64,000 nucleotides of DNA from Actinomycetes bacterium (GTDB lineage: Bacteria > Planctomycetota > Phycisphaerae > JAACET01). Made by a program: the position numbers and the translations under genes. Location: the NCBI GenBank assembly GCA_030614915.1, contig JAUXAG010000001.1, positions 249,170 to 313,169 on the forward strand, written 5' to 3'. The notes beneath the pieces are model-generated. The model did not search any database and had not been told where the DNA came from. It saw nothing but the letters and a program-made list of their open reading frames with translations. Of this stretch, positions 1,709 to 64,000 are shown one piece after another; within the stretch, counting starts at the first letter, position 1, and the number at the start of each line of letters is the position of its first letter.

Positions 1709-2338
1709 ATGGATTCTAACGGTAGCGCCCTCACTTGCAACGTCTTGGTGCTGAACCGGCACTACCAGGCCCTGCGGGTAGTCCAGGCCAAGCGGGCCTT
1801 CTCGCTGCTGTTTCGACGGCTGGCTGAGGTGGTGGCTGTCGAGCAGGATACTTACAACACCTACGACTTCCAGAGCTGGGCTGAGGTTTCCGAACTGCGG
1901 CGGCAACTCTCGCCCGACGGTCACGACTGGGTGCATACGGTTCGGCTGACCATTGCCGTGCCGCGGATTATTCGCTTGTTATTTTACGATCGTCTGCCGC
2001 GGCAGCAGGTCAAGTTCAATCGGCGCAACATTTATGCCCGGGATCACAGCCGCTGCCAATATTGCGGCAAGCGCTACCCCAGCAGCGAACTGAGCCTGGA
2101 CCACGTGGTTCCGCGCAGCCGCGGGGGCAAGACGGTGTGGGGCAATGTGGTCTGCTGCTGCACGAGCTGCAATGTGAAAAAGGGTGGACGTTTACCGGCC
2201 CAAGCCGGGATGAAGCTGATTGCCAAGCCGGTCAAACCCCGCCGCTCGCCGTTGATCCACTTGCGTCTGGGCCTGGATAAATACGCATCGTGGAAACAGT
2301 TCTTAGACCATGCTTATTGGTCTGTGGAGTTGCACTAA
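1709..2338 (+). CDS. HNH endonuclease family protein
   Basis: A 209-residue protein with a C-terminal HNH nuclease core. The core shows a zinc pair C116-x2-C119 (CQYCGKRY), the catalytic DHVVPRSRGG at about 131-140 with Asp131-His132, Asn146 in WGNVV, and a second zinc pair C151-x2-C154. The N-terminal 110 residues (VLVLNRHYQALRVVQAKRAF) match the extension found on stand-alone HNH proteins common in planctomycetes and Bacteroidetes, where the true role is unknown. It starts 14 bp after the leuB stop, so the two are probably cotranscribed. There is no methylase or restriction partner nearby, so a restriction role is not supported. Confidence 0.85.
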   Translation: MDSNGSALTCNVLVLNRHYQALRVVQAKRAFSLLFRRLAEVVAVEQDTYNTYDFQSWAEVSELRRQLSPDGHDWVHTVRLTIAVPRIIRLLFYDRLPRQQVKFNRRNIYARDHSRCQYCGKRYPSSELSLDHVVPRSRGGKTVWGNVVCCCTSCNVKKGGRLPAQAGMKLIAKPVKPRRSPLIHLRLGLDKYASWKQFLDHAYWSVELH

Positions 2339-2363
2339 GACGAACATTAGGGGAGAATAAAAG

Positions 2364-2543
2364 ATGATTCTGCAACCGGGGATTTGTCCAAATTGTAATT
2401 CGGGAATGCTGCGGCGTGGCTTCGGCTGGCCAAGGGCTGTTTGCTTGGTGGTATTTTTTGTCCTCTTCTTTCCTTTTGCCATCATATTGGCTTTTAGCCC
2501 TAACTATCTTTTTTGCAGAAACTGCGGGGCAAGGTTTGATTAG
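2364..2543 (+). CDS. Tiny zinc-ribbon/membrane protein (59 aa)
   Basis: A short frame from ATG 2364 to TAG 2543 with a good ribosome site (GGGGAG at 2350-2355). The product begins MILQPGICPNCNSGML, has one hydrophobic segment of about 24 residues (VCLVVFFVLFFPFAIILAF), and ends FCRNCGARFD. The two CxxC pairs lie on either side of the membrane segment in sequence, so they can form one zinc ribbon only if both ends face the same compartment and the segment is a hairpin. It follows the HNH gene by 25 bp and may be the last gene of that transcription unit. No function is recognised. Confidence 0.6.
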   Translation: MILQPGICPNCNSGMLRRGFGWPRAVCLVVFFVLFFPFAIILAFSPNYLFCRNCGARFD

Positions 2544-2566
2544 AAGGCAAGCGGGGGGCCAATCAT

Positions 2567-3532
2567 TTATCCGGATAAAGGTTCGTCGGACGAGGTGGAA
2601 CTGGCCGTAGGGCTCTGAGCGGCGGAGCTGGGCATGGCGGTTTTGGCCCTGGCGGCTCGCCAGCGCTGCTGCATCGCTTTAATGGGACCGGAAAGCCCAA
2701 AAGCGCAAAACAGACACACCAGGGCGATTTGCAAATGAACCAGACAAAGAATAAAGAAGATGGTCAGGCGTACCAGGTGCTTGAAGCTGCGTCGGCCGGC
2801 CACGTACTGATTGAGCAGGTGAATGTAAGGTATCCGGGAGACCATAGCCAAGGCTAATATCAGAGCGATTGCGGGCAGGGCTCTGAGCAGCACATGTGCT
2901 GCCCAGGCTACGGTGCTGCTGGTAAGCCAATCACCCAGACCGGTGGCCTCGCGCAGGAATTCCTGGTGCAGGACCACCAGGCTGGCGATGGTTCCGGCGG
3001 CGGCTGGTGAGGGCAAGCCCCTGAAGGTCTGATGGCTCGAGATATCAGTAGTGCTTTCCACGTTGAATCGGGCCAGTCGCAGAGCCGTGCAACACAGATA
3101 GATGGCGGCTATTAGCCAAATCCCCTTACCAACGATAGGGGCTACAGCCAGCGAGGCTGCCTGAGTAGGGGTGAGAAGTTTGATCAGCAGAAAAGCCGGG
3201 GCCACACCGAAGCTGACCACATCAGCGAGAGAATCTAACTGGGCGCCGAAGTTGCTGGCTGACTTGCTCAGCCGAGCCAATCGTCCGTCGATGGCATCGG
3301 CCAAAATGGCGATGAGAAGCAAGTAACCGGCCAAGGCCAGGGGGGATCGGATAAAAGCAGAGATGAACAGCCGCTTATGGAAGTCGCCCTCGGGCATGGC
3401 CGTGTAGTAGATGGCGGCAAATCCGCAGATTGCATTTCCCAAGGTAAAAAGGCTGGGCAAGACAGCTACGCCTCGCAGTCGGCGGGGCTTTTTTGGGCGA
3501 GATCGGGACCACCGTCTACGGGTTTTAGTCAT
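2567..3532 (-). CDS. pssA: CDP-diacylglycerol-serine O-phosphatidyltransferase
   Basis: Integral membrane enzyme that makes phosphatidylserine from CDP-diacylglycerol and serine. The CDP-alcohol phosphatidyltransferase signature D-x2-DG-x2-AR-x8-G-x3-D-x3-D is intact (DAIDGRLARLSKSASNFG followed by AQLDSLADVVSFG, residues about 79-109). Several hydrophobic segments follow, and both ends are basic. The length of 321 residues is at the long end because of an N-terminal RRWSRSRPKKPRR patch and a C-terminal Ala/Ser-rich tail. The ATG (3530-3532) overlaps the 3' end of psd by 8 bp, which implies translational coupling. The product is the substrate of the neighbouring decarboxylase. Confidence 0.9.
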   Translation of the reverse strand: MTKTRRRWSRSRPKKPRRLRGVAVLPSLFTLGNAICGFAAIYYTAMPEGDFHKRLFISAFIRSPLALAGYLLLIAILADAIDGRLARLSKSASNFGAQLDSLADVVSFGVAPAFLLIKLLTPTQAASLAVAPIVGKGIWLIAAIYLCCTALRLARFNVESTTDISSHQTFRGLPSPAAAGTIASLVVLHQEFLREATGLGDWLTSSTVAWAAHVLLRALPAIALILALAMVSRIPYIHLLNQYVAGRRSFKHLVRLTIFFILCLVHLQIALVCLFCAFGLSGPIKAMQQRWRAARAKTAMPSSAAQSPTASSTSSDEPLSG

Positions 3533-4217
3533 CGGAGCTATCCTCTGGTGAGGTTATGGAGTCGTAGCCCAGCAAGACCGTCGAGCCAGCCTTTACCTTT
3601 TGACCCTTGCTGACCTGCAGTCGGAGCTTCTGGGAATAAGGCAGATATAACTCGACTCGCGAGCCGAACTTGATCATGCCGAAGGGCTCACCACGGTCCA
3701 AGCGTTGGCCCAGCCTGCAGCGGCAGACAATGCGGCGGGCCAAGACCCCGGCTATCTGCTTGATCAGCACGCTCTGGCCGGGAAGCTGCGGACAATTCAA
3801 AAGCACGCTGTTGGACTCGTTGTCTGCAGAGGCCCTGGCCCGCAGGGCGTTGAGAAACCTTCCAGGTACATGGTTGAGGGTAGTAACCGTACCGGCAGCT
3901 GGCGAGCGGTTGAGGTGAGCATCAAAGACACTCATGAAAATTCCAATCTTCAGAGTTCTTCCGGGCACGAGGGGGCAGTCCTGGACCTGGTCAATCTCGA
4001 CGACTTTACCGTCAGCAGGACTGACGAGGATTCCGGCCTGGGCCGGGATCTTCCTGGCCGGGTCGCGGAAAAAGAACAAGAGAAAGACAAGCAGGGCCAG
4101 AAAAGGCAGGGCCAGCCAAACACTCACATACATCCAGGCCAATACCGAGGTCGCCAGGAGCATCCCGCCAATAACAAGCAGGTCCACAATGCAATAGCGG
4201 GCTAAGGGCAGACGCAT
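3525..4217 (-). CDS. psd: Phosphatidylserine decarboxylase proenzyme
   Basis: Converts phosphatidylserine to phosphatidylethanolamine. It is of the short, archaeal-like type (about 230 residues): an N-terminal membrane hairpin (LLVIGGMLLATSVLAW and LPFLALLVFLLFFFRDP), then VSPADGKVVEI, GIFMSVFDAHLNRSP with the conserved His, and the self-cleavage site in MIKFGSRVELYLP, where the Gly-Ser bond is cut to form the pyruvoyl group. The start is set at the ATG giving MRLPLARYCI; the frame stays open upstream to 4445 but that part lacks conservation. It overlaps pssA at its 3' end, so the two form a psd-pssA operon. Confidence 0.88.
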   Translation of the reverse strand: MRLPLARYCIVDLLVIGGMLLATSVLAWMYVSVWLALPFLALLVFLLFFFRDPARKIPAQAGILVSPADGKVVEIDQVQDCPLVPGRTLKIGIFMSVFDAHLNRSPAAGTVTTLNHVPGRFLNALRARASADNESNSVLLNCPQLPGQSVLIKQIAGVLARRIVCRCRLGQRLDRGEPFGMIKFGSRVELYLPYSQKLRLQVSKGQKVKAGSTVLLGYDSITSPEDSSDD

Positions 4218-4374
4218 AGTTCTGTCAATCCTATGGATAAATCCCAAGGGCATTGAATTTCTGCAGTCATGGTACGTGCAAGAGGCCCCCAGTGTCAAGG
4301 TCCGGCGGGTCTTTGGGCCGGGAGTCGGGAGTCCGAACTTGTCGGTTCCGGGCCGAGAGGGTTTATCGGCAGAA

Positions 4375-5175
4375 TCAGGGCTCGCCGAAGAGGGAATTGT
4401 CTTGCGGCCCGAACCATCCGATATTCCACTCTTCCGGATTCGCATCGTACGCCGCCGTCTCCGAGTTGGAAAAGCTCATCTCTTGCGCATCCACGTGACC
4501 GTCGCACCAGGCGATGTTGGCCTCGCCGCGGTGACGAAAATGTGTGGTGGGCGTAGCCAGTCCCCACTCCTTTTTTACCTGTTGATCCCAGACCCAGTAC
4601 GGCGGCTGAAGGAAGGAGTATTCTATAAGATAATCACCGGCGTCAGCCCGAGCCATGGCCGAATCGGCGAACATGATGGTCTTAGTCGGACGAGGGATTT
4701 CCGTGTCGCGGGCCCCGCTGGTAATATCGCCGCCCCAGCGGCTCCGGGAGCCGACGTAGTCATTATTATAGCCGTATCCGCCACCCCCAGACTCAAAGGC
4801 GCTGCTGCCTTCCTGAACAAAGTCTTGGAAGTTGGGACACTGCTTCATCTTGCCATCCAGGAAGTAGGGCGAGAGTGGCCCCTTCGTCGGATCGAAGGGA
4901 TCGTTCAGCGTAGGTCTATAGCCGTGCCAGCGGAACAGCCCAGGCGAAACCCAGTCCATATCCGAAGCACCGGGTACGAAGAAACCATCGTGGTCGCCGA
5001 CGTAAAGACAATTAGCCAAGGCCAATCCATGCAAATTGGTGGCGCAGCGCGTCTTGTCGGCTAATTCACGGGCGTGAGTCAGGGCCGGGACCATGATAGA
5101 GACCAACAGGGCGATAATAGCCACTACTACCAACAACTCAATCAACGTAAACGCCCTTGCATTTCGCATGAACAT
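4375..5175 (-). CDS. Type II secretion-like pseudopilin, H-x9-DG family
   Basis: A 266-residue protein with a class III prepilin leader ([20 protein letters not shown], cleavage expected at A-FTLIE with the conserved Glu at +5) followed by one hydrophobic helix. Near the C-terminus the motif [15 protein letters not shown] fits the planctomycete H-x9-DG signature. The middle is Gly/Asp/Tyr-rich, as in this family. The start at 5175 is fixed by GGAGG seven bases upstream (5183-5187 on the plus strand). Hundreds of paralogues of this family occur in single planctomycete genomes; their roles are unknown, possibly surface fibres or secretion. An intrinsic terminator and a cobalamin riboswitch lie directly upstream on the same strand, so expression is probably tied to B12. 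Confidence 0.9.
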
Positions 5176-57806: not shown

Positions 57807-58343
57807 ATGAAGAATAAGACGTCCAATAATAATCCGGGCTCTGCATCGTGTGATCCGGCTGAGCTGTTCAGGACACTCGGAACGTCTGTGTATGGTTACG
57901 CGATGAGTGTGCTGGGCAAAGCAGCCGAGGCCGAGGAAGTTTTGAGCGAAACGTTTTTGCGGGTATGCAAAAACAAGGAGCAATATAGTAGTCGGGGCAG
58001 TATCAGAGCCTGGGTGTTTAGTATAGCCCACCGGCTTTGCATGGATGTCCTGCGAGACAGGGCGAAGTCGGCAAAGCCGGTGAGCTTGCCCGAGCAGTTG
58101 GCCTCGGCTGATCCGCCGCCAACAGTTCCAATCGAGAAGCAGGAACGGCAGGCAATTATAACGGAGGCCATTGAGAGGCTTTCTGCTGAACAAAAGGAAG
58201 TGGTTATGCTTAAGATGTATGGGGGTTTGACCTTTCGGGAAATCAGCGAGACGCTGGGTATACCGCTAAACACGGCCCTGGGGAGAATGCACCAGGGGCT
58301 CAAGCGGCTGGGCAGGGATCCAAATCTGGCTAAGGCACTCTAA
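57807..58343 (+). CDS. ECF-type RNA polymerase sigma factor
   Basis: A 178-residue sigma factor: region 2 (AELFRTLGTSVYGYAMSVLG, then KAAEAEEVLSETFLRV and SSRGSIRAWVFSIAHRLCMD) and region 4 (IERLSAEQKEVVMLKMYGGL, then TFREISETLGIPLNTALGRM). It forms a pair with the zinc-finger anti-sigma 110 bp downstream. The last codons and stop lie within the left arm of a 23-bp perfect inverted repeat, which would make the transcript fold strongly between the two genes. Confidence 0.93.
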   Translation: MKNKTSNNNPGSASCDPAELFRTLGTSVYGYAMSVLGKAAEAEEVLSETFLRVCKNKEQYSSRGSIRAWVFSIAHRLCMDVLRDRAKSAKPVSLPEQLASADPPPTVPIEKQERQAIITEAIERLSAEQKEVVMLKMYGGLTFREISETLGIPLNTALGRMHQGLKRLGRDPNLAKAL

Positions 58344-58434
58344 CAAGACCTGACGGGAGCCGCGTTGTGAGACAAATCGGATGGATGCAAGGAAGAACGA
58401 CGGCGGGGCCGCGTCAGGTCTTGTTAGAGTGCCT
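58333..58434 (+). repeat. 23-bp perfect inverted repeat between sigma and anti-sigma genes
   Basis: Left arm 58333-58355 begins AGGCACTCTAACAAG and ends CTGACG; right arm 58412-58434 is its exact reverse complement. The 56-bp spacer is GC-rich. The left arm covers the sigma factor's stop codon. No T run follows, so it is not a simple terminator; it may work as an RNA hairpin that lowers anti-sigma expression, or it may be a duplication scar. Confidence 0.9.
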
Positions 58435-58453
58435 AAGATAGGAAGAACAGAAA

Positions 58454-59056
58454 ATGGACTGTGAACGCGAACACGAATGCTTGCTGTACCTTTGGGGCGA
58501 AATGGAGCAGAGCGAGCGAGCAGCTTTCGGCCTGCACCTGGAGAAGTGCCCGGCGTGTAAGGGGCAAGTCGAGCAATTGGAGCCGTTGGTGCGGTCGATG
58601 CGAGTCATGGAGGTCGAAGAGCTGCCGGAGGAAGTGGCCCGGCGTGTAAGCGGTCGGCTTGCTGAGGCCGGCGAAAGTCGGCCGAGGGCAGTGCGGTTTC
58701 GGACGCAGAGAGTGCTGGCTGCGGCAGCGTCAATCGTGTTGGTGGTGGGGGTTGGTATTCTGTGGCTGAACACACTGAACAAGTCGCCAGGGCCCGGAGG
58801 AGCCGGCCCTGAGCGAGTGGAAAGGACAGAGCCGCCGCTCAGCGATGACGATTATGTGGAGGCACTGGCTCTGGTCTTAATAAGCGAACCTGCCGATGCG
58901 GACGATATCCTGACCGAAGCAATTGAGGATGTGGCTTATCAGATAGCCGAACTATCGCAGGAGATTGAGGAGGACTTCGGGCCAATCGAGCCAAGCAAGA
59001 GCGGGCCCGATGAACAAGGGTCTAATCCTGCGGCTGGGAAGGTCAGGATGGCATAG
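58454..59056 (+). CDS. Zinc-finger anti-sigma factor
   Basis: A 200-residue membrane protein with an N-terminal ZAS domain: ERAAFGLHLEKCPACKGQVE gives the H-x3-C-x2-C motif (His28, Cys32, Cys35). One transmembrane helix follows (VLAAAASIVLVVGVGILWL, about 90-108), then an acidic periplasmic part (DDDYVEALALVLISEPADAD) without known domain. It should hold the preceding ECF sigma factor inactive at the membrane. Confidence 0.9.
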   Translation: MDCEREHECLLYLWGEMEQSERAAFGLHLEKCPACKGQVEQLEPLVRSMRVMEVEELPEEVARRVSGRLAEAGESRPRAVRFRTQRVLAAAASIVLVVGVGILWLNTLNKSPGPGGAGPERVERTEPPLSDDDYVEALALVLISEPADADDILTEAIEDVAYQIAELSQEIEEDFGPIEPSKSGPDEQGSNPAAGKVRMA

Positions 59057-59112: not shown

Positions 59113-60129
59113 ATGAAAAAGCTAATAGCGAGTCTATTGTTGGTAGTGCTAGTTGTTCCGAGTCTGGCCTGGGCCGAGCAGGGCAAGCAGCCGCAGCGGC
59201 GCCGGCAGCAAAAGGACGCCCCTGGTAGAGGTGGGATGAAGCTGGAGCAGGTTGGAGGCAAGATTGTGTCGCTGTCGGCAAACACGGTGACCATTGCCAA
59301 AGCGGCGCAAACAGAAGATGACAAAGCCAAGGTTCAGCAGGTGAAGGTGCGGACAGCGGACAAGCCGGAGTTGCGAGGCTTACTGGCTAAGGGACTTGGG
59401 CAGAAAGCTCAACTGCTTTGCAAGAAAACGGACAAGGGGGCCTGGGTCCTGGTGAGGATAAAAAGCATCGAGGGTGTGGAGGTTGCAGAGCAAGGGCGCC
59501 GATGGCCGGGGATGAGGGACAGGATGCGTCAGAGAGGCAAGGAACTAAGCCCCGAGCAGCGCGAAAAGATGAGGGAACGGTTCAAGACGATGGGCGCGCA
59601 CCTCCGGAAGAACCCGGAACTGCGGAAGAAGCTGAGGGAATTGGCCGAGAAGGACCCCGAGGCTTTTCGGCGTCGGATTCGGCAGATTCACGAACAGGGG
59701 CCAGGGCGTCCGGATAGGATGAGGCCTCGCTGGGAGCCACGCGGGCCGATGCCGCAGGCGGATAGGCGGCGGCCAGGTGAGCCGATGCCCCCGCTGGGGC
59801 TGGGAATGAGCCCAATGGGGGTATCTCGACGTCGGGCTTCAGCCGAGAGCGCGGAAATCCGCAAGCTGGAACAGCAGAGCCAGGAATTGGGCAAACGGTA
59901 CCGGCAAGCCAAGGGCCGAGATAAAGAAAAGCTGGGGGAGAAACTTCGGAAAACTCTTACAGAGGTCTTTGAGCTAAAGGTTCAAACGCAGGGCAAACAA
60001 GTCCAGCGTCTGGAAAGGCAACTGGAGAAGCTGCGCGGCCAACTGGAAAAACGCGAGCGGAATCGCGAGGCCATAATTGAAAAGCGTTTCACAAAGTTGA
60101 CCAGGCAAGAGGAGGAGCTATCCTGGTAA
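59113..60129 (+). CDS. Exported, highly charged protein of unknown function
   Basis: A 338-residue protein with a signal peptide (LIASLLLVVLVVPSLAWA) and a mature part rich in Arg, Lys, Glu and Gln. After a small beta domain (GGKIVSLSANTVTIAKAAQT, resembling DUF5666/KOW-like strands), there are long helices, for example LSPEQREKMRERFKTMGAHL, and a Pro/Arg/Met-rich linker. The C-terminus is a coiled coil (VQRLERQLEKLRGQLEKRER). This reminds one of CpxP/Spy-like periplasmic helical proteins, but there is no clear LTxxQ motif. Third gene of the sigma/anti-sigma cluster, so a likely target of that sigma factor. Confidence 0.7.
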   Translation: MKKLIASLLLVVLVVPSLAWAEQGKQPQRRRQQKDAPGRGGMKLEQVGGKIVSLSANTVTIAKAAQTEDDKAKVQQVKVRTADKPELRGLLAKGLGQKAQLLCKKTDKGAWVLVRIKSIEGVEVAEQGRRWPGMRDRMRQRGKELSPEQREKMRERFKTMGAHLRKNPELRKKLRELAEKDPEAFRRRIRQIHEQGPGRPDRMRPRWEPRGPMPQADRRRPGEPMPPLGLGMSPMGVSRRRASAESAEIRKLEQQSQELGKRYRQAKGRDKEKLGEKLRKTLTEVFELKVQTQGKQVQRLERQLEKLRGQLEKRERNREAIIEKRFTKLTRQEEELSW

Positions 60130-60150: not shown

Positions 60151-60186
60151 AAAGAGCTACCCGAGGCAGAACTCCGGTAGCTCTTT
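60151..60186. terminator. Bidirectional intrinsic terminator
   Basis: AAAGAGCTACC (60151-60161) and GGTAGCTCTTT (60176-60186) form a perfect 11-bp stem with a 14-base loop, with A-rich sequence before and T-rich after. It lies between two convergent genes (stops at 60129 and 60196) and can act in both directions. Confidence 0.9.
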
Positions 60187-60195
60187 CCTTATCGA

Positions 60196-62127
60196 TTATT
60201 CTTCAGCCAGCTGCTGGTTGAACTCTGCGATTTGGTTGGCGAGGCGGTCGAGCGCCCACTGGACGTAGGTATTCTTGTGGGCTAAGCGGGAGTGGCGTTC
60301 CTTGCTGAGCCCCTCAAAGATGACAGCACAAAATCGGCCGACGACATTTGGGGGGATAGGCTCTGGTTTGCGCGACCAGGCGATCAGCTCATTTAGCTGT
60401 TCGAGAAGGTGGGGACGGTGCTCAAGCTGCTCAGGGGTAAGATAATCGCCCAGGTCCAGAGCCAACTGCAAACCCTTCAGGGCCAATATGAGGGTTTCAT
60501 AGTTGATGTGGTCGCCGAGACGAACGAACTTGAACTGCTGGACAATGGATGGTCGAGCCGGTCGCAAGAGGGTGGGCTCTTCCTGCCGGTCCCCAGCGGT
60601 GGCCCGGCGGCGGGCGGTGCGAGCAAAAATCAAACCGTCCTTGTGCTCGGGGGAGCCGATTTCGTCAGCCATCATGCGGCTAATGGTCGGGCGGGAGTCT
60701 GCTGCGGGCTGGGGGTCGCCGCCAAGAGCGAGCAGACATTTGGCGAAATCCAGGGGCAGAATTCCCTGGGGGTCTTTGTGGTGGCGGAGTAATTGTATGG
60801 ACAGGTGCAGACTGTGAGGCTTGACCGGGTAAAAGCGGACCACTTCGCGAATGAGCTGGGCCAAGAGCCAAGGGTCCTTGGTGGCGGGGACGGAGAACTT
60901 GGGCTCCATGGAGAAGGCCCCCGGAGAAAACTCCAGGAATCCGCGCAGGCAGTGGTCGGATCCGTGGGCTTGATGGTCGTCGATGTGGCCGCCTAACTTC
61001 CAGGTCAAGGCAGGCAAGGCAAAATTGCGGAAATAGCGGAAGCCGTCGAAGGCCTGGTCTTTAGTGCCGGGCCCGCTGTCGTAATCGGCGATCACGGCGT
61101 GGCCGACGTTGGAGAACTCCAACTCAGCGCCAAGGGGGAGCAATCCGCCTTCGAGATTCTCGCGTATCCAGCGGAAGATTCCGGCGGCCATCCGGGTGTC
61201 GTAGAGGGATTCGGCAGCGTGAATAGCCCAGGCTACGATGTCGAGCAGGTCATGACGTTGGGGGTCAAAATCATTGAGCAGCTCATGAACCAGCTTATCG
61301 AGGAGGCTCCTGCGGCGGTTGAGCATGGTCAGGGCGGCCATGGACGAAGTGGTATGCTCGTAAAAGCGCAAGGACAAGCCCATATGATCCAAGTCGAAGC
61401 GGAACTGTTCGAGAAACTTCTGCTCGGTCTGGTTAAAGAGAACCTGGCGGACGACCAGGTCCAGATAGTTCCTGATATATGGCTGAGCCAGGGGGTCTTT
61501 GGATAAATCGCGGATGGAGGCCAGGGGCCTAGAAAGTTCACGTTTGAGGAAATAGTCGGCGACGGATCCGCTTTCGAGCCGGGCCCGGATGAGATCTCGA
61601 ATGGTCAGCCCGCGGAGCTCTTCCTCGGCGGTGACGCGATAACGAGGCAAGAGGGCAGAGTCTGCAGACTCGGCAGCCCGTTTGGCGAGAAACTCCTCGA
61701 CCCGCTTGGTGATGAGGTGCTCGTGTTTGAGGTTTATGCGAAAGCGGTCGCCGAAGTCCTGGCGGAGGGTTTTTTCGTTGGCCAAGTAGGTGAAGGCCCG
61801 GATGCGATGGGCCTCCTGATGGACTCTGACCTTGGTTCGAATATAGCGCTTGCCCTCGTGGTGGTCGAGCAAATCGATCAGCTGGCTGGGAAGGGCGTAA
61901 ATGAGATATCCGCTGATACGATGTCCCCGGCGAGGGATGGCATAGAGATACATCCCGTCGGGAGAGATTTTTCGATGGCTGGCGAGAATGGCCTCTCTGG
62001 CCTCGAGAGATGCCGGGGTGGCCTGGGCCTGACCGGGAAGGGCATAATCTCTCCCGGTGACCCAGCGGAAGAGCCGACGGTCCATAAATGTGCCGTAGAC
62101 GAAGAGGTTGAAGGTTTTCGCGGGCAT
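60196..62127 (-). CDS. Fusion: GGCT-like (AIG2) domain plus amidoligase-like domain
   Basis: A 643-residue two-part protein. Residues about 5-125 are a gamma-glutamylcyclotransferase/AIG2-like domain: FNLFVYGTFMDRRLFRWVTG and LLDHHEGKRYIRTKVRVHQE, with Glu91 in the catalytic position. After a helical linker, residues about 330-450 look like the glutamine-synthetase-fold amidoligase family: LPLGAELEFSNVGHAVI, TWKLGGHIDDHQAH, RGFLEFSPGAFSMEPK and KPHSLHLSIQLLRHH, matching the ELEF, E-x-SP and H-x-H-x-S type positions. Such pairs are known from comparative work on amidoligases that make or trim gamma-glutamyl bonds. A C-terminal helical tail (about 460-643) is unassigned. The amidoligase call is inference from motifs. 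Confidence 0.65.
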   Translation of the reverse strand: MPAKTFNLFVYGTFMDRRLFRWVTGRDYALPGQAQATPASLEAREAILASHRKISPDGMYLYAIPRRGHRISGYLIYALPSQLIDLLDHHEGKRYIRTKVRVHQEAHRIRAFTYLANEKTLRQDFGDRFRINLKHEHLITKRVEEFLAKRAAESADSALLPRYRVTAEEELRGLTIRDLIRARLESGSVADYFLKRELSRPLASIRDLSKDPLAQPYIRNYLDLVVRQVLFNQTEQKFLEQFRFDLDHMGLSLRFYEHTTSSMAALTMLNRRRSLLDKLVHELLNDFDPQRHDLLDIVAWAIHAAESLYDTRMAAGIFRWIRENLEGGLLPLGAELEFSNVGHAVIADYDSGPGTKDQAFDGFRYFRNFALPALTWKLGGHIDDHQAHGSDHCLRGFLEFSPGAFSMEPKFSVPATKDPWLLAQLIREVVRFYPVKPHSLHLSIQLLRHHKDPQGILPLDFAKCLLALGGDPQPAADSRPTISRMMADEIGSPEHKDGLIFARTARRRATAGDRQEEPTLLRPARPSIVQQFKFVRLGDHINYETLILALKGLQLALDLGDYLTPEQLEHRPHLLEQLNELIAWSRKPEPIPPNVVGRFCAVIFEGLSKERHSRLAHKNTYVQWALDRLANQIAEFNQQLAEE

Positions 62128-62317: not shown

Positions 62318-64000
62318 ATGGAGTCAGGCAAAAACATGAGCTTTCGGCGCTACGGCCGATCGTACCATTTGCATATAGAAACGGCTGCTGAACTGCAGAG
62401 CGTTCTGGAGCTGGACCAGGCCCACTGGGTGGCGACCAACGCGCCGATAAACACTATCAACTGCGACGGGACGTTCCTGACGCTGATGGACACGGATAAG
62501 AACGGGCGAATCATCTGCCAGGAAGTGAAAGACGGGATCGTCTGGCTCTTGGAGGTATTCAGCGATCACGAAGGGATAAGCAAGGGGAGCCGGAGATTGC
62601 GGCTGGGGGCCATCAACTACGACAATCCGCAAGGCAAAGAGATTCACGAGGCGGCGGTGAAGATGCTCAGGAGGCTGGGGCGGGGCGACGCTGAAGAAAT
62701 CACGCTGGAAGATATCCGGCAGATAAAGGCCCAGGTGCAATCGCAGTCGGTGAGCGAGGCTGGGGTCATTCTGCCCGAAGCTGCTGAGGATGCCCAAGTG
62801 AGCGAGTTCATCGGCGAGGTTATAGCGACGGTTGGCGGGGTGGAGCATCCCGGAGGGGCTTTGGGTGTTGATCAGGGCAAGCTGGATGAGTTCGTTAAGC
62901 AGGCGGAAGCTTTTCTGAAATGGCATCAGCAGGGCCAGATTCCTGCCGGCAAAGCCAAGACCGAAATAATGCCGCTGGGGGGCCAGACGGCGGGGAGGTA
63001 TGCAATCCTGGCCTCGGTGGCAGACAAAATCGAGCAGTACTTCGCTCAGTGCACGGTTCTGGCGTTGGGGGAGAAGTTCGGCGAACAGATGGGCTGGACG
63101 GCGGCGGAGCTGCAAGAGTTGGACCTGGACGAGCCAGGAGTAATTGAGGAGGTTCTGCGAAAGGCGCCGCTGGCCAAGCCCAGAGCGGCAGATGTGCTCT
63201 GCTTGGCTGAGCAGATCAATCCCTATTATGCTCGGGCCCTGGCGCGCTTTGGCAAAGAGGTGATGCCGGAGGTGCTGAAAGAAACGGGCGATACGATGAC
63301 CAGCGGACAATGGGGGCAGATTAAGGACTTCTTCGGGGCTCACAAGGGGTGGATTAAAGGCAAGCCGAACACGGCCCTGGAGTCGCTGGGGGTCCAAAAG
63401 CTGCGAAATTATGTGGATGGAAATTTCACCAAGGCTGTGCAGGCCTTAATTGCCAAGAGCAAGGACACGGCATTCGCCCTGGATAACATCCGCCTGGCAG
63501 AAAAGGCGGTTCTGTATCAGGCGTACATGATATCTCTGGCAAACAACTTTGTGAGCTTTCCGCATCTCTACGACGCCCAAAAGCGGGCGATGTTTGAAAT
63601 GGGAACGCTGGTAATGGACGGTAGAAGATTCAACCTGGCAGTCAATTCAGTGGATCGCGCCCAACATGCCAAAGTAGCCAAGACATCGAACATGTACGTA
63701 TTGTACGTGGAGATTACAGGGAGAGACGGCAAGGCGAAATATGAAGTGGCTGTGCCGGTAACCTCCGGGGGTAAGGGCAATTTGTGCCTGGGCAAGCGGG
63801 GAGTATTTTATGATCTGGCGGGCGAAGAAGCCGATGCCAAGGTTGTGCATATTATCGAGAATCCGATCAGTCTAGCCGAGGCGTTGCTGGCACCGTTTCT
63901 GCGGCTGGGGCGAATGCTGACAGGGAAGATTGAATCGATTACAGCTGAAGCTGAGAAGAAATTCGATAGCAAGGCGTCAACGGCGATGAATCAGGCTACT
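62318..64000 (+). CDS. EF-hand containing protein, incomplete at window end
   Basis: An uninterrupted frame of 561 codons from ATG 62318 (AAAGGA eight bases before) to the last base, with no stop. The N-terminus reads MESGKNMSFRRYGRSYHLHI; an EF-hand calcium site follows (TLMDTDKNGRIICQEVKDGI, residues about 47-66, D-x-D-x-N-G). The rest is mixed helical (AADVLCLAEQINPYYARALA) with a C-terminal beta part (NMYVLYVEITGRDGKAKYEV). It belongs to a planctomycete family of unknown function. It is divergent from the GGCT/amidoligase gene with a 190-bp shared promoter region. A minus-strand frame over the same bases is a shadow. Confidence 0.8.
   Translation, partial: MESGKNMSFRRYGRSYHLHIETAAELQSVLELDQAHWVATNAPINTINCDGTFLTLMDTDKNGRIICQEVKDGIVWLLEVFSDHEGISKGSRRLRLGAINYDNPQGKEIHEAAVKMLRRLGRGDAEEITLEDIRQIKAQVQSQSVSEAGVILPEAAEDAQVSEFIGEVIATVGGVEHPGGALGVDQGKLDEFVKQAEAFLKWHQQGQIPAGKAKTEIMPLGGQTAGRYAILASVADKIEQYFAQCTVLALGEKFGEQMGWTAAELQELDLDEPGVIEEVLRKAPLAKPRAADVLCLAEQINPYYARALARFGKEVMPEVLKETGDTMTSGQWGQIKDFFGAHKGWIKGKPNTALESLGVQKLRNYVDGNFTKAVQALIAKSKDTAFALDNIRLAEKAVLYQAYMISLANNFVSFPHLYDAQKRAMFEMGTLVMDGRRFNLAVNSVDRAQHAKVAKTSNMYVLYVEITGRDGKAKYEVAVPVTSGGKGNLCLGKRGVFYDLAGEEADAKVVHIIENPISLAEALLAPFLRLGRMLTGKIESITAEAEKKFDSKASTAMNQAT

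Follow-up and report, generated by a model that had tools for sequence, protein, structure and literature searches.

Fusion of a gamma-glutamyl cyclotransferase domain to a predicted GS-fold ligase-like domain in Phycisphaerae

Phage genomes repeatedly pair a gene for a gamma-glutamyl cyclotransferase (GGCT) with one for an amidoligase: LUZ24-like phages (PMC3890496), the planctomycete phage Phage-ZRK32 (PMC10945688) and prophages of Clostridium (PMC11318856) all do so, in each case as separate genes; the last two reports cite the amidoligase survey of Iyer et al. 2009. Some of the phage clusters also include glutamine amidotransferase and ATP-grasp or glutathione-synthase partners. The locus described here has the pairing in common with them, but whereas the phages use two genes, it encodes both parts in one chromosomal polypeptide, and its ligase half, compared with phage amidoligases, matches neither PF12224 nor PF14395. 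Although GGCT and amidoligase pairs are known as separate phage genes, the fusion and its ligase family look new, and no report of a GGCT-ligase fusion was found in our partial coverage of the literature.

The GS-fold families that resemble the C-terminal domain of the fusion protein in structure make or break gamma-glutamyl amide bonds. Dop and PafA provide the best structural match, but the protein described here has a GGCT domain in front, no Pup_ligase match, no adjoining tag gene and only about 10% identity to them, and no evidence of their small C-terminal domain was seen in it. Gamma-glutamylcysteine synthetase and YbdK (GCS, GCS2) have the GS fold (Z 11.6-13.0) and a GxExE first strand in common with it, but no profile match links them to it and no thiol genes were seen nearby. 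A similar cap-and-release logic operates in butirosin production, in which a glutamyl cap is added and later removed by a GGCT-like enzyme (BtrJ/BtrG). In that system, BtrJ is an ATP-grasp enzyme rather than a GS-fold one, and the two are separate proteins of an antibiotic pathway, whereas here a single chain is involved.

Domain layout and the cyclotransferase half

The fusion gene and its parts are placed as follows in the window, by which we mean the whole 64,000-nucleotide stretch of DNA that was analysed.

60196..62127, minus strand: fusion gene, 643 aa, open reading frame with an ATG start
61744..62118, minus strand: GGCT (AIG2-like/GGACT) domain, about residues 4-128 (PF06094, 45 bits)
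61855-61857, minus strand: codon of the catalytic Glu, E91, in the HHEGKRY motif
61150..61743, minus strand: helical linker domain, about residues 129-326 (read from the model's secondary structure)
60199..61149, minus strand: GS-fold carboxylate-amine-ligase-like domain, residues 327-643 (predicted model from residue 320)
61117..61131, minus strand: G333-A-E335-L-E337, presumed metal-binding first strand of the ligase domain (conservation and start of the structural alignment)
60931..60933, minus strand: E399 in LEFSPG, presumed metal or nucleotide acid (kept in 51/52 sequences)
60793..60816, minus strand: H438-S-L-H441-L-S-I-Q445, presumed nucleotide/metal-binding strand (near-invariant H438, H441 and Q445)

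The gene is real, and the position and strand stated for it at the outset were borne out. Its product has three parts, an N-terminal gamma-glutamyl cyclotransferase domain, a helical linker domain and a C-terminal GS-fold ligase-like domain, and both the fusion of a GGCT with a GS-fold-like domain and the predicted fold (full-length model: pLDDT 78, pTM 0.73) are well supported. Outside GGACT, a Pfam search of the protein returned nothing even at E = 10, and an NCBIfam search returned no match. Residues 328-643 fall into no Pfam, NCBIfam or PHROG family, and no Pfam match was found for the helical linker in the window protein or in 20 family members.

The N-terminal domain carries the GGCT pattern, catalytic Glu included, that had initially been read from the sequence. 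PF06094 (GGACT) matched residues 8-119 with 45 bits against a curated cut-off of 22.8, and 20 of the 20 family members scanned also matched it (E up to 10). In the predicted model this region has the GGCT fold, with VIA Z scores of 13.6 to 2g0q, 12.0 to human GGCT (3cry) and 10.6 to 3juc, and the full-length model aligns with GGCT structures over residues 3-129. The YGT motif corresponds to Y11-G12-T13. E91 occupies the conserved Glu-Gly position of the family in an alignment to AIG2-like structures, and was present in all 51 sequences that cover the position in a 52-sequence alignment. The catalytic Glu of human GGACT is E82, and 3jud is the entry for its E82Q mutant.

The domain is like other members of GGACT/GGCT (PF06094) in family score, fold, YGT motif and catalytic Glu, but it opens a protein of 643 aa, whereas the GGACT matches in class genomes that lack the fusion are mostly in frames of about 100-220 aa, with some longer. 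In each fusion genome with a GGACT profile match, the fused domain was the sole GGACT found, in a genome search that missed the known fused domain of the window's own genome and in which absences are no proof.

The GS-fold ligase-like half

When modelled alone from residue 320 (model md15d9d8856e5; pLDDT 72, pTM 0.77), the C-terminal domain gave VIA Z scores of 14.1 to Dop, 14.0 to PafA, 13.0 to gamma-glutamylcysteine synthetase, 12.8 to a bifunctional glutathione synthetase, 11.6 to YbdK and about 10 to GS, with GCS structures at 12-13; scores less than 1 apart are ties, and Dop, PafA and GCS are too close for reliable ranking. The initial annotation had named a confident non-GS model of the ligase region as the finding that would speak against it. 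The model instead favoured the GS fold: 42 GS-fold entries scored from 14.1 to 9.2 before the first chain of another fold at 5.0. In the full-length model, about residues 328-643 again resembled Dop (Z 10.2), GshAB (9.8), PafA (9.7) and GS (about 9). Foldseek on its own placed the same folds on top, modestly (best E 4.7e-3, probability 0.95), and structural matches in BFVD were weak. Model confidence of the domain is moderate and is lowest in the loops around the putative site. As a prediction from structure, the assignment to the GS fold is well supported.

At the sequence level, no profile tied the domain to a known ligase family. Amidoligase_2 (PF12224), COOH-NH2_lig (PF14395), Pup_ligase (PF03136) and GCS2/YbdK (PF04107) all failed to match any of 20 family members, even with the E limit raised to 10, and searches of the window's own genome for GCS2, Amidoligase_2 and Pup ligase also found none. 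The predicted amidoligase of the initial annotation thus held up as a GS-fold carboxylate-amine-ligase-like domain in the model, but not as a member of a Pfam amidoligase family. Comparisons by hhalign of 24- and 52-sequence profiles with Pup ligase, GCS2 and Amidoligase_2 scored no higher than unrelated controls. This null result is no evidence against homology because the test also scored poorly between known GS-fold families taken as positive controls (0.1-70% probability). RNase H matches (E 0.05 and above) and a kinase match (E 0.06), the former from a search of PDB sequences, were taken as chance. The profile libraries used here did not recognise the GS fold predicted for this domain, which would thus widen the known range of these enzymes.

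The amidoligase-like motifs GAELEF, LEFSPG and HSLHLSIQ were confirmed as first quoted; the acids and histidines in them hardly vary in the 52-member family. Across 52 distinct sequences, G333, E335, H438, Q445, R484, E489, R507, Q531, R536, E544 and K551 were kept in all 52, and E337, D361, D383, E399 and H441 in 51. The structural alignment begins at model residue 328, opposite Dop residue 1, and would place E335 and E337 on Dop Glu8 and Glu10 if the first strand is ungapped, a correspondence known from the alignment start only. In Dop, magnesium is coordinated by Glu8, Glu10, Tyr92, Glu99, His155 and His241 (PMC8599861), and we infer that E399 may correspond to Glu99 and H441 to His155.

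The sole exception at the 51 of 52 sites is a gene from family f9 (L059, 7528-9480), which has the changes E337D, D361N, D383E, H385M, E399R and H441R and keeps E91. A second f9 genome (L148, fusion gene at 2332-4503) has also lost E399 (to Val) and H441 and kept E91. These two genes form a natural loss-of-function series, in which ligase acids and His are lost and the cyclotransferase Glu is retained. That the ligase site can decay while E91 stays suggests an active GGCT half with a function in its own right.

Distribution and gene neighbourhood

A protein search found full-length homologues in 27 of 101 near genomes, including the window's own, at 36-92% identity, and a profile of the C-terminal domain matched 98 of the 397 class genomes. 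Matches were confined to families f1 (that of the window), f9, f10, f16, f20, f117 and f118. There is one copy per genome, save in two that look split between contigs, and the open frames span about 640-880 aa, with a handful of shorter ones resembling contig-edge or split pieces. Among 392 genomes of the phylum, the fusion was confined to members of the class: two matches outside it (L030 and L031; E 1e-7 and 8e-5) were ordinary stand-alone GGCTs with no fusion, and the long open frame around L030 contained no GGCT-ligase fusion. Collections of phage, plasmid and viral contigs held no relative of the fusion protein. Beyond the phylum, coverage consisted of one contig scan with a short pattern, which recovered two near relatives and missed known distant ones. 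PF07596, a family typical of planctomycetes, scored below threshold in the window's own genome.

Separate trees of the GGCT and GS-like domains both recovered f1, f10 and f20 as clades. Their concordance in family groupings suggests that the fusion is old and that its halves have travelled together. Judged from these comparisons, the fused gene arose long ago and has been inherited vertically in single copy.

Within the window, the fusion gene stands alone, convergent with a 338-aa gene and divergent from a gene for a protein with an EF-hand-like loop, with flanking intergenic gaps of 66 and 190 bases.

59113-60129: gene for a 338-aa charged protein
60151..60186, no strand assigned: inverted repeat between the convergent 3' ends, with 15-nt arms (AAAGAGCTACCCGAG/CTCCGGTAGCTCTTT)
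62318-64000, continuing past the window end: divergent gene, a 748-aa open frame in the genome, with one EF-hand-like loop, DTDKNGRIICQE

The inverted repeat, with arms that are 93% complementary, a 6-nt loop, A-rich and T-rich flanks and a terminator-like match on the minus strand, is likely a two-way terminator shared by the convergent genes. Pfam found no domain, and no EF-hand, in the divergent protein, which had initially been proposed as the substrate of the fusion enzyme, with conserved linkage as the check. That linkage is not kept across genomes. The EF-hand-loop gene has a patchy distribution across the class; a second genome from the same genus, G002, carries a homologue of it on contig C149 and the fusion on C6; homologues are present in f2, f5, f6, f7 and f15, families in which the fusion was not found; and none of the f16 genomes, all of which carry the fusion, gave a match to it. 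We therefore rejected the EF-hand protein as a partner on the grounds of this genomic unlinking.

A different arrangement was found in f16, f20, f117 and f118, where the fusion closes a same-strand gene run (24 loci, compared over ORFs of at least 90 aa). The run includes a many-pass membrane protein (24 of 24 loci), a polyprenyl-phosphate-type GT2 (22 of 24) and a class I/II aminotransferase (21 of 24), and its upstream gaps are mostly <100 bases. An alanine racemase gene lies directly upstream of the fusion in f16 (9 of 9) and f118, with gaps of -1 to 98 bases, and a heptosyltransferase-like gene follows the fusion in 10 of 13 f20 loci. The conserved neighbours showed no gshB and no further thiol gene. 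The run is absent from f1, the lineage of the window, and from f10. Its membrane protein is likewise present in f16 and f20, absent from f1 and essentially absent from f10, and is not an obligate partner because it is also found in f7, f8 and f13, families without the fusion. Given these two observations, the run points towards envelope or amino-acid metabolism but does not prove a role there.

The membrane protein is itself of note as a family: the representative in L040 (2928-5687) and its homologues (alignment A4) are about 770-1080 aa long, have many membrane passes and lie beside the GT2 and the fusion in f16 and f20. It has a GT-C-type look with no supporting match, and no Pfam or NCBIfam family was found for it.

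Possible roles of the fused domains

The retention of active-site residues in both domains across distant genomes makes an enzyme that makes and breaks gamma-glutamyl bonds the most economical reading. We put at roughly 0.5 the probability that the protein is a bifunctional gamma-glutamyl-amine ligase/cyclotransferase that acts on a small amine, perhaps in envelope metabolism. The GS-fold domain, with ATP and magnesium, would activate a gamma-carboxylate, probably that of glutamate, and then couple it to an amine to give a gamma-glutamyl amide; the GGCT domain would cyclise this amide, releasing the amine and 5-oxoproline. The two domains might thus cap and uncap a small amine or amino acid within one chain, and the gene run in many relatives suggests that the target may be an amine from an envelope glycan or amino-acid pathway. 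What the data show is the domains, the predicted fold, their conservation and co-inheritance, and the gene order; the two activities, the glutamate donor, the order of capping and uncapping and the envelope role are what we infer. An enzyme that formed and cleaved the same bond within one chain would run a futile cycle unless substrate, time or regulation kept the two steps apart. The loss of ligase residues in two f9 members also counts against this reading, as do the missing sequence-profile link, the moderate model confidence and the absence of the gene run from f1 and f10.

A more specific and tentative possibility is that the ligase domain represents a new family of GS-fold ligases, restricted to a clade of the class, and that it and the cyclotransferase together carry out a reversible gamma-glutamylation of a single target, as a self-contained on/off switch on an envelope amine or a protein.

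In another reading, which we consider unlikely, only the ligase half is a usual enzyme, and the GGCT domain has turned into a substrate-binding or quality-control module that removes products glutamylated in error or holds a gamma-glutamyl intermediate. GGCT folds do bind gamma-glutamyl groups, and the ligase core is the best-conserved part of the protein, with a mean pairwise identity of 57% over residues 328-460 compared with 48% for the GGCT domain, 44% for the middle and 50% for the GS-like domain as a whole. The invariance of E91, even in the f9 members with a decayed ligase, points instead to an active cyclotransferase.

Two further readings are quite improbable. The GS-fold domain could act as Dop does and hydrolyse or deamidate a gamma-glutamyl (isopeptide) bond, in which case the two halves would both cut such bonds; this would suit Dop and PafA as the top structural matches, but GCS follows close behind, Pup_ligase matches neither the family nor anything in the window's own genome, and the fold does not discriminate a ligase from a hydrolase. 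Improbable too is a gamma-glutamyl-cysteine or glutathione-like thiol cycle, with the ligase making gamma-Glu-Cys and the GGCT degrading it. The scores of GCS structures and the lack of a GCS2 match in the window's own genome are consistent with such a cycle, but the conserved neighbours include no thiol gene and no sequence link to GCS2 was found.

Of the make-and-trim enzyme proposed initially, the GGCT/GS-fold fusion and the retention of both sites stood, but its peptide or protein tag is very unlikely: although the closest folds include Pup ligase and depupylase and both halves would act on gamma-glutamyl bonds, the idea is unsupported because the gaps beside the gene leave no room for a tag gene (66 and 190 bases within the window, mostly <100 in the operons), the EF-hand neighbour is unlinked and the neighbouring genes are metabolic and envelope enzymes.

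For the preferred gamma-glutamyl-amine ligase/cyclotransferase, the maintenance of a single-copy fusion across several families of bacteria suggests that both steps are parts of a single process, and the fusion offers a purifiable protein on which both could be tested together. A glycan amine as the target would reveal a modification of the envelope in a little-known group, and a protein target would mean a modification of a rare, self-reversing kind.

Elsewhere in the window, at 57807-59056, a sigma-factor-like gene (178 aa) is followed by one whose 200-aa product has a CPAC motif and a single hydrophobic stretch, a pair that resembles an ECF sigma/anti-sigma set and lies ahead of the 338-aa charged protein.
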